From Pseudosulfitobacter pseudonitzschiae (lineage in GTDB: Bacteria > Pseudomonadota > Alphaproteobacteria > Rhodobacterales > Rhodobacteraceae): a stretch of DNA of 64,000 bases. Below, in pieces: positions 22,820 through 44,064 of this stretch. The notes under the pieces were generated by a model, which saw nothing but the letters and a program-made list of their open reading frames with translations, searched no databases and had not been told where the DNA came from. Each line of letters starts with the position of its first letter. Positions within the stretch are counted from its first letter, which is position 1. A program made the translations under genes and the position numbers. Location: contig NZ_FQVP01000004.1 of the NCBI RefSeq assembly GCF_900129395.1, forward strand, positions 434,001-498,000. The letters are read 5' to 3'.

Positions 22820-22899
22820 AAATCATCCCGCTGCATGTCCGGGTTAAACATGCACCTCCCTGTTGGACTTGGCCGGGCCTTTGTGCCCGGTCATTTTTT
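22820..22899 (+). ncRNA. Candidate small RNA with C-rich loop, downstream of cenR
   Basis: From the predicted start near 22822 to the terminator the transcript would be about 80 nt. GCATG (22833-22837) pairs with CATGC (22848-22852) around an 11-base loop; a single-stranded ACCTCCC follows, complementary to Shine-Dalgarno sequences, then the terminator hairpin. The layout resembles C-rich-motif sRNAs of alphaproteobacteria (CcsR of Rhodobacter, GsrN of Caulobacter) in style only. It could instead be the 3' UTR of cenR. Confidence 0.4.
22871..22899 (+). terminator. Rho-independent terminator after cenR / candidate sRNA
   Basis: GGCCGGGC (22871-22878) pairs with GCCCGGTC (22885-22892) with one G-T pair and loop CTTTGT, followed by A and six T at 22894-22899. 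Confidence 0.9.
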
Positions 22900-26991: not shown

Positions 26992-28320
26992 ATGCAGGAC
27001 TGGTTGTGGATGACGGCAAGCGATTTGGGTCGCGGGATCGGCGCGGGCGAGATTGACCCCGTCGCGTTGACGCAGGTCTTTTTGGACGCCATCGAAGGCC
27101 ACGACCTGCGCGACCGCATCTATGCGCGTGTCACCCGAGAACGGGCGCTGGCCGAAGCCAAGGCCGCCGCCGCGCGTGCGGCCAGCGGGCATCGCCTGTC
27201 CTTGCTGGACGGGGTGCCGGTGAGCTGGAAAGACCTGTTCGACACGGCTGGCGTGGCGACCGAAGCGGGATCAAAGCTGCTCGCGGGTCGTGTGCCGGAT
27301 CGCGATGCGGTTGTGTTGCAGGCCGCGACGGCGGCGGGGCTGGTCTGTTTGGGCAAGACGCATATGAGCGAACTGGCGTTTTCGGGGCTGGGCTATAACC
27401 CGTCGACCGCAACGCCACCTTGCGTGAACAATCCCGACGCGGTGCCCGGTGGGTCGTCCTCGGGGGCGGCGGCCTCGGTGGCCTTTGGTCTGGCGGCGGC
27501 GGGGATCGGGTCGGATACCGGCGGATCGGTGCGTATTCCGGCGGCGTGGAACGACCTCGTGGGACTGAAAACCACATCGGGGCGGTTGTCGCTGGAGGGT
27601 GTTGTGCCGCTGGCGTTGAAGTTCGACACCATCGGCCCGCTGGCCCGCAGCGTCGAGGATTGCGCGCAGCTTTTGGCGGTTCTTGAGGGCGGCAAGCCTG
27701 CCGACCTGACAGGGGCCAGCCTGAAGGGGCGGCGTCTGGCGATTGTGAAAACCGCATTCCTGCAAGACGTGCGCGATGCTCCGCTGGCGGCCTTTGAAAG
27801 TGCCGTTGAGCGGATGCAGGCGGCGGGTGCCATTGTCGAGCGGATCGAGGTGGACGCGGTGCAAGAGGCGCTGGATTGTGCAGGGCCACTGATCCCGACC
27901 GAGGCTTACGGCCTGTGGCGCGATGTGATCGAAGCAAACCCGGATGCGATGTTTTCCGAAGTGCTAAAACGGTTCCGTCTGGGAGCCGATGTCAGCGGGC
28001 CGGACTACGTGGCCGCCTGGGCCGCGCTGGAGGCGGCGCGGTTTGGGTATGATGCGGCTGTGGCAGGATATGACGCGGTGATTGCGCCGACGGGGGCAAA
28101 CCTGCCGCCGAACCTGGAGCGGTTGAACACCGAGGATGATTATTACCGCACCGAAAACCTTCTGACCCTGCGCAACACGCGCATTGGTAACCTGCTGGGG
28201 CTCAGCGCGCTGACCTTGCCGACAGGTGTCCCAAGCTGTGGTGTGATGCTGATGATGCCACCCGATTGCGAAGAAGCGCTGTTGCGGCTGGGCGCTGCAG
28301 CAGAGGCGGCGCTGGCGTGA
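26992..28320 (+). CDS. Amidase (amidase-signature family), 442 aa
   Basis: Hydrolase with the Ser-cisSer-Lys triad: Lys80 in SWKDLF, the Ser-rich GGSSSG at residues 153-158 and the nucleophile in GSDTGGS (172-178). Could hydrolyse small amides; GatA is unlikely because context and C-terminus differ and no gatB or gatC is nearby. AAAGGAG precedes ATG 26992 with good spacing. Confidence 0.92.
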   Translation: MQDWLWMTASDLGRGIGAGEIDPVALTQVFLDAIEGHDLRDRIYARVTRERALAEAKAAAARAASGHRLSLLDGVPVSWKDLFDTAGVATEAGSKLLAGRVPDRDAVVLQAATAAGLVCLGKTHMSELAFSGLGYNPSTATPPCVNNPDAVPGGSSSGAAASVAFGLAAAGIGSDTGGSVRIPAAWNDLVGLKTTSGRLSLEGVVPLALKFDTIGPLARSVEDCAQLLAVLEGGKPADLTGASLKGRRLAIVKTAFLQDVRDAPLAAFESAVERMQAAGAIVERIEVDAVQEALDCAGPLIPTEAYGLWRDVIEANPDAMFSEVLKRFRLGADVSGPDYVAAWAALEAARFGYDAAVAGYDAVIAPTGANLPPNLERLNTEDDYYRTENLLTLRNTRIGNLLGLSALTLPTGVPSCGVMLMMPPDCEEALLRLGAAAEAALA

Positions 28321-38802: not shown

Positions 38803-39597
38803 ATGGGGTCCACAACACCGGTCATAGGGATTGTTGGCGGTTCGGGGATGCTTGGCTCTGCGATTGCGACAGCGATTTTACGCGACGGGGCTATTGCGCC
38901 GGAGTGTTTCTGGATCTCGAACCAAAGCGGAAAGGTTCCGGACCTGGGGCAGGGGGCGGATATTCATGTCACCTCGAACAATCAGGACCTTGTTGACGCC
39001 TGCGACGGGATCATCCTGTGCGTGCCGCCCGCCCGGTTTCCCGACCTGAAGATCAACGCCAGCGGCAAGCTGGTCATTTCGGTTATGGCAGGTGTGATAA
39101 TCGACCGGATCGCGGCCCAGACTGGTGCGTCGCGCGTCATCAGGGCCATGAGCAGCCCGGCGGCGGCGCTGGCGCTGGCCTATTCCCCGTGGTGCGCAAA
39201 TCCCGCCGTCACCGACGAGGACCGTAAAACCGTCGAGCTGGTTCTGCGCGCCTGTGGCAAGACGGACGAGGTGTTCGACGAAAGCCACATAGACCATTTC
39301 ACCGCGATAACCGGACCTGTCCCCGGGTTCGTCGCGCTGTTTGCCCAGTGTATGGCGGACTATGCGGAAAGCCAGGGCATCGACGCCAATGTGGCGGATC
39401 GTGCCGTGCGCCAGCTGTTTTTGGCAGGCGGAACAATGCTGGCCGAAAGACCCGAGAGACCGGCGGATCATGTGCGCGGCATGATCGACTATGCAGGTAC
39501 GACCGCCGCCGGGCTGACCGCGATGATCGATGCGGATCTGCACAGCACAATCAGCGATGGGCTGTTGGCGGCGGCGAACAAGGCAAAGTCACTTTAG
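38803..39597 (+). CDS. Pyrroline-5-carboxylate reductase (ProC)-like protein, 264 aa
   Basis: NAD(P)-dependent reductase fold: N-terminal IGIVGGSGMLGSAIATAIL, then GIILCVPPARF and VISVMAGV, and a helical dimerisation domain with HIDHFTAITGPVPGFVALF and GLTAMIDADLHSTISDGLLAA (residues 239-259). ProC makes proline from P5C, but the last segment deviates from canonical ProC, so another imine substrate is possible. GAGGAGTAAC precedes ATG 38803. It lies directly upstream of the regulated methylamine-type cluster, but its own promoter is separate. Confidence 0.8.
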   Translation: MGSTTPVIGIVGGSGMLGSAIATAILRDGAIAPECFWISNQSGKVPDLGQGADIHVTSNNQDLVDACDGIILCVPPARFPDLKINASGKLVISVMAGVIIDRIAAQTGASRVIRAMSSPAAALALAYSPWCANPAVTDEDRKTVELVLRACGKTDEVFDESHIDHFTAITGPVPGFVALFAQCMADYAESQGIDANVADRAVRQLFLAGGTMLAERPERPADHVRGMIDYAGTTAAGLTAMIDADLHSTISDGLLAAANKAKSL

Positions 39598-43176: not shown

Positions 43177-44064
43177 ATGACGAAAATAACCCTTCTCGAC
43201 GGCGGCATGGGCCAAGAGCTGATCCACCGTGCAGGCGACCGGCCCACACCGCTGTGGTCCACTCAAGTGATGATCGACCACCCCGGCCTTGTCGCCGAGG
43301 TGCATCGCGATTTCGCCGCCGCAGGGGCCACCGTGGCCACCACGAACACCTACGCCATCCACCGCGACCGCTTTGTCGGCACCGACGTGGACGGTCAGTT
43401 CCAGACGCTGATGGACCGCGCATTGACCGAAGCACGCAACAGCAAGGTGTCGGTGACTGCAGGCGCTATCGGCCCGCTCGTCGCCTCTTATCGGCCCGAC
43501 CTGCACCCTGATGCCGCAACCGCGATCCCGCTCTATACCGAAGTGGCCAGCCTGCTGGCCCCGTCCTGCGCTCTGCTGATCTGCGAAACCGTCGCCTCGC
43601 TCGACCACGCCCGCAGCGTTCTGGCTGGTGCGACCACCACTGGCAAACCTGTCTGGCTGTCCATCACCGTCGATGACCGCGACGGCACCAAGCTGCGTTC
43701 GGGCGAAGCGGTGGCGGACATCCTGCCCATCGCGGCAGGAAAAGCCGCCGCGGTCCTCGTCAACTGTTCGGCCCCCGAGGTGATCCCCGCAGCCCTCGCA
43801 ATCCTGTCGAAGGGCACATTGCCTTACGGCGCTTATGCCAACGGCTTTCAGCGCATTACCGAGGAATTCCTGCAATCGCGCCCCACTGTCGCCGACCTGC
43901 AAACCCGCCACGATTTCACGCCCGCAGCCTATGCCGATCACGTCATGGCCTAGGTCGACGCCGGCGCCACCATCGTGGGTGGCTGTTGCGAGGTCAGCCC
44001 CGCCCATATCGCCGAGATTGCGCGCCGCCTTACCGCAGCGGGCCACACGCTGAGCCGACCCTGA
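43177..44064 (+). pseudogene. Homocysteine S-methyltransferase (BHMT-like) interrupted by in-frame TAG, 258 + 36 codons
   Basis: Zinc-dependent S-methyltransferase fold: LLDGGMGQELIHRAGDRPTP at the start, TNTYAIHR, LLICETVASLDHARSVL and VNCSAPE, whose Cys is the first zinc ligand. The frame stops at TAG 43951-43953 after HVMA, then continues open in the same frame for 36 codons to TGA 44062-44064 as VDAGATIVGGCCEVSPAHIA. That tail holds GGCC, the other two zinc cysteines, so the 258-aa product alone should be inactive. Relatives have Trp at this spot (GWV), so TGG to TAG is the simplest change. Could be a true pseudogene, sequencing error or suppressed codon. Confidence 0.85.
43951..43953 (+). 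other. In-frame amber codon inside the homocysteine methyltransferase gene
   Basis: TAG in the context ATG GCC TAG GTC GAC. Homologous motif on both sides, no frameshift, and a normal stop 36 codons later. It lies inside the palindrome CCTAGG. Confidence 0.85.

Follow-up and report, generated by a model that had tools for sequence, protein, structure and literature searches.

In this one genome of Pseudosulfitobacter pseudonitzschiae, a recent nonsense point mutation has very probably truncated a homocysteine S-methyltransferase to 258 of its 295 residues. The gene lies in the window, the stretch of 64,000 nucleotides analysed here, where its frame opens with ATG at 43177, runs for 258 codons into an amber codon at 43951-43953, continues in frame for another 36 sense codons and closes with TGA at 44062-44064 (Table 1). 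Translation through the stop gives a protein of 295 residues with a match to PF02574 from residue 6 to 284 (175.8 bits, E 2.3e-51, cut-off 22). Five congeners align with it along all 295 residues with zero gaps, hence the tail behind the stop is not a chance continuation. The initial annotation had reported the in-frame TAG and a C-terminus restored by 36 in-frame codons with GGCC; reading the frame confirmed the stop as codon 259 of 295, and the profile match spans it, with GGCC at 43978-43989. Further frameshifts would have spoken for ordinary decay, and both the frame and the congener alignments contain no frameshift, no indel and no second stop. The gene is a member of PF02574 and its predicted product is incomplete.

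Table 1. Positions of the interrupted gene, its landmarks and its two neighbours in the window
Feature	Position	Strand	Basis
Homocysteine S-methyltransferase (PF02574) gene with one in-frame amber codon	43177..44064	+	ORF, profile match, gapless 295-residue congener alignment
Truncated frame that is actually open (258 codons + TAG)	43177..43953	+	ORF reading
Amber codon TAG, codon 259 of 295	43951..43953	+	TGG (Trp259) in 114/114 aligned relatives
Tail behind the stop: 36 codons (for the last barrel strand, GGCC and the final helix) + natural TGA	43954..44064	+	Translation and predicted structure of the intact sister protein (L046)
GGCC codons (residues 268-271)	43978..43989	+	Translation, relatives' alignment
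Cys197 codon, 5' of the stop	43765-43767	+	Translation, relatives' alignment
Upstream neighbour: intact FAD-dependent oxidoreductase-GcvT fusion, 815 aa	40678..43125	+	ORF, profile; relative in the flanks of 63/80 loci (some flanks short)
Downstream neighbour: intact second FAD-dependent oxidoreductase-GcvT fusion, 815 aa	44108..46555	+	ORF, profile; relative in the flanks of 63/80 loci (some flanks short)

To identify the replaced residue, we aligned the read-through protein to 125 loci by tblastn (E 1e-20). This yielded 115 rows, namely the window's own locus (L001) and 114 relatives; of the ten loci without a row, eight are distant paralogues and two belong to the synthetase family. The codon at the amber site was TGG in every one of the 114 relatives and TAG in the window alone. 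Some genomes are counted twice among these relatives, and after removal of identical sequences 106 distinct ones remained, all with tryptophan at site 259, as did 16 of 16 further family copies. None of the five congeners has a stop in the gene, and the sister protein from the nearest congener genome (G003) is 93% identical. Among solved structures, tryptophan aligns to residue 259 in E. coli MmuM (PDB 5dml) and tyrosine in Thermotoga MetH (1q7m), so that Trp259 is not absolute outside the near family. The proposed exchange of a conserved tryptophan codon, TGG to TAG, thus holds for all 114 relatives, and the comparison with sister genomes that had been suggested beforehand points either to an error or to a mutation specific to this strain. 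The mutation would be a G-to-A transition at 43952. Our guess is that the site may have been a mutational hotspot, as the sequence around it would have read CCTGG before the change, a Dcm-type site. The genome encodes two cytosine-5 DNA methyltransferases, for one of which a comparison with solved structures ranked HhaI- and HaeIII-type enzymes first, and CCWGG is scarcer in the whole window than in shuffles (113 versus 164).

A family search over 295 genomes listed at least 150 matches, 22 of them with a flagged stop, a flag that frameshift-broken copies escape. Fourteen of the flagged copies stop at their natural end (query position 288 or beyond), and in six the alignment ended at position 282 or beyond before any stop. 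Two carry mid-gene stops among the matches listed: the window's copy (TAG, codon 259) and one from another genus of the family (G249/L028; TAA, query position 122). The latter, with its single in-frame TAA and zero departures at highly conserved sites, indicates that this gene has acquired, or been recorded with, a lone nonsense change elsewhere too.

What the truncation would remove can be read from the predicted structure of the intact sister protein L046 (17-sequence alignment, mean pLDDT 89.2). Residue 259 sits in a helix (249-261) that is followed by a strand (266-269), the cysteines 270 and 271 and a further helix (275-287). The truncated product would therefore lose the end of the residue-259 helix, the last barrel strand, both GGCC cysteines and the final helix. 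Cys197, Trp259, Cys270 and Cys271 are invariant in all 17 aligned sequences, and we take the three cysteines to be the zinc-binding ones of the family. Only Cys197 precedes the stop, with Cys270 and Cys271 behind it. Given the predicted loss of the GGCC cysteines and of the end of the barrel, the truncated product is expected to be inactive and unable to bind the catalytic zinc; the expected loss of both GGCC ligands supports the earlier view that the enzyme should be dead unless the stop is read through. The consulted portion of PMC4516251 describes a catalytic zinc in PF02574 enzymes, and its reference list names work on the three zinc-binding cysteines of human BHMT.

The surroundings of the gene are intact. 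Both 815-residue neighbours are open across their whole family match, in agreement with the initial annotation, and presumably resemble dimethylglycine or sarcosine dehydrogenases. No NCBIfam cut-off was reached by either neighbour (among the best 25 of 28 and the best 25 of 36 rows) or by the methyltransferase. The read-through methyltransferase scored 120.1 against the equivalog NF007020 (cut-off 215), and we therefore assign no methyl donor to it. The premature stop is separated from the downstream start by 111 bases of frame, counting the natural stop, plus a gap of 43 bases, so strong polarity would not be expected. Scans for promoters and terminators gave nothing above shuffles, and plasmid records matched only in the 60-80% identity band (three records in one search, nine in another). 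Farther upstream, a pyrroline-5-carboxylate-reductase-like gene (38803-39597) lies between a thiolase and a regulator gene; a counterpart was seen in the flanks of one of 80 relative loci, that of the closest sister (L046). The genome contains exactly two PF02574 matches, and the other one (G000:C23) has an open frame and a score of 574 bits to NF005718 (cut-off 338). The strain presumably tolerates the loss of the window's enzyme, perhaps because this enzyme serves an accessory pathway and a second PF02574 enzyme remains intact.

A sequencing or assembly error, with an intact gene in the living strain, would equally leave the stop as the only stop or indel amid an intact tail, frame and neighbourhood. 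We nevertheless consider it unlikely. The change replaces one base and does not lie within a run of three or more equal bases, and modern assemblies rarely have substitution errors in their consensus. Moreover, the assembly does not look rich in errors when 490,159 bases of the window's contig are compared with 400,000 bases of the closest sister genome, G003. For this survey ORFs shorter than 100 codons, below 70% identity or with fewer than 15 differences were dropped, as were those with 60% or less of their differences at codon position 3, and overlaps were resolved. For the 318 ORFs of G003 that passed, a stop or frame change in the window's genome appeared in 19 rows: two with a frame change only, 15 with a stop in the first 60 codons, the methyltransferase gene, and one with a stop at codon 240. 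Taken as a group, the 15 early stops probably reflect starts placed too early. The same cause led us to reject the TAG at codon 240 of a 1211-codon ORF, whose first 240 codons differ almost only at position 1 and the downstream part, which we take to be SecA, at position 3. Thus, of all stops beyond codon 60 in the 318 ORFs compared, the methyltransferase amber alone held up, and we infer that the base call is correct.

The reverse comparison, with 319 ORFs, gave 23 rows, three of them due only to a short match. Its sole ORF with a stop beyond codon 60 (134 codons, three stops, 78% identity) is probably not a gene. Two looser comparisons (one with 64 and 66 rows, the other with overlaps unresolved) produced many more internal stops. 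We set these aside as a group, as presumably lying mostly in opposite-strand frames, since the filtered ORFs alone account for 118,667 codons, some 356 kb of the 400 kb.

The codons behind the stop look selected. Against L003 and against L005 alike, the tail of the window's copy shows 16 synonymous differences and 2 nonsynonymous ones (pN/pS 0.048), two comparisons that are not independent as the 3' ends of L003 and L005 are nearly identical; before the stop, the ratio against L003 is 0.099. Against L004, L006 and L007, the tail gives 0.175, 0.102 and 0.122 and the part before the stop 0.167, 0.210 and 0.252. No relaxed selection is seen in the 36 codons behind the stop, and as these ratios span the whole divergence they exclude only a long relaxed phase before today. 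L003 and L005 themselves diverge strongly over most of the gene and are 99-100% identical in the last three 74-base blocks (about 220 bases), a pattern that suggests recombination.

A tail that looks selected is also what one would see if the stop were read through to some level by a near-cognate or suppressor tRNA, yielding some full-length enzyme. The part of PMC7918605 that we drew on lends this some backing, in that in-frame stops of bacteria are there said to lie often in selected sequence and possibly to lower expression; the amber case fits the short-lived class of that paper, which keeps a read-through reading open. A recent mutation, however, explains the selected tail equally well, and the stop is shared by none of the 114 aligned relatives, so we regard read-through as highly improbable. 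Even less credible is a variant in which this species keeps the amber codon as a throttle, a near-cognate tRNA or an unseen suppressor allowing a little read-through and so holding the enzyme below the level of the two flanking oxidoreductases.

The decoding machinery of the genome argues in the same direction. Release factor RF1 is present and open (492.2 bits against a cut-off of 423.25, no internal stop), and of 319 gene-like ORFs on the window's contig with an alignment to G003, 60 end in TAG, which would make strong suppression costly. A search at E 0.001 recovered 38 tRNAs, with anticodons read for 30 and for the other 8, and none of the 38 has a UAG-reading (CUA) anticodon, in a survey that is incomplete since tRNA-Tyr, tRNA-Ile(GAT) and tRNA-Ala(TGC) are not among them. 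Relaxing the threshold to E 10 added three weak matches in which ARAGORN calls no tRNA, and the E. coli tRNA-Tyr as query found short pieces only. The look-up of pylS that had been proposed returned no TIGR02367 match in the genome at E 0.001, a search that was positive in 13 of 14 control genomes and over the cut-off in one. Two PF01409 matches were found (329.3 and 20 bits), the stronger of which we take to be PheS. On the TIGR02367 and PF01409 results and the TGG of all 114 aligned relatives, we rejected pyrrolysine recoding. Our literature search found no report of amber read-through in a homocysteine methyltransferase. The programmed and suppressed options of the initial annotation accordingly found no support, all the more as no second stop beyond codon 60 held up in the compared ORFs, and this gene provides no evidence of amber recoding in the genus.

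Other RNA features were noted in passing. ARAGORN calls a tRNA-Ala at 27169-27258 that is absent from the Rfam tRNA matches; the stretch reads, by its motif, like what we assume to be an amidase gene, and the call is probably false. Rfam places the small RNA SorX at 22826-22898 (71.8 bits). Outside the window, L229 (G000:C10:7535-7800) is a partial tRNA-like 3' half whose anticodon loop is of Lys type and which may have served an integrated element as its attachment site.

The remaining alternative is an older, already decaying pseudogene in which the stop is one of several lesions. Compared with the five congeners, the window's protein has three changes of its own: A91V, D132A and the stop. 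Site 132 is aspartate in 104 of the 106 distinct relatives (one has alanine, one asparagine), and congeners L004-L007 show zero departures at such highly conserved sites. Such departures nevertheless occur in 54 of the 106 relatives (33 with one, 21 with two or more), which makes D132A weak evidence of decay. Since this one relative likewise carries Ala132, neither a frameshift nor a second stop occurs, pN/pS is low behind the stop and the sister protein is 93% identical, an older pseudogene is most improbable. A single disabling change, intact orthologues and a tail free of relaxed selection are what a recent nonsense pseudogene presents, and of the four options raised at the outset, recent, programmed, suppressed or error, we favour the first.

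The consequences lie mainly in annotation. The gene should be marked as a pseudogene, probably a recent one, in the annotation of this genome, and the strain may be without a methyl-transfer step that is present in its relatives. If several strains shared the stop, the gene would become a small test case for the persistence of in-frame stops in bacterial genes.

Among known systems, pyrrolysine decoding of amber codons in methylamine methyltransferases resembles the present case superficially, by an in-frame TAG in a methylated-amine-like setting. It differs in that here PylS has no match and the aligned relatives carry tryptophan at the site, and the window's methyltransferase belongs to what we take to be a different protein family. 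The likeness to the PF02574 family and E. coli MmuM (5dml) consists of a match over the whole length, Cys197 and GGCC in place and the tryptophan of MmuM at site 259, whereas the window's copy is cut by TAG at that codon and scores below the NF007020 cut-off. For Phaeobacter inhibens, the portion of PMC5764234 used here describes a three-part methionine synthase, one part of which is a PF02574 protein. The candidate for that part in the present genome is, by contrast, the open paralogue G000:C23, which we equate with it by inference and which may play the methionine synthase role here. Recent single-nonsense pseudogenes of bacteria (PMC7918605) likewise combine one in-frame stop with an otherwise intact gene in one genome only; the only differences are the gene and its host. 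The case looks like ordinary recent gene loss and not like a special reading of the genetic code.
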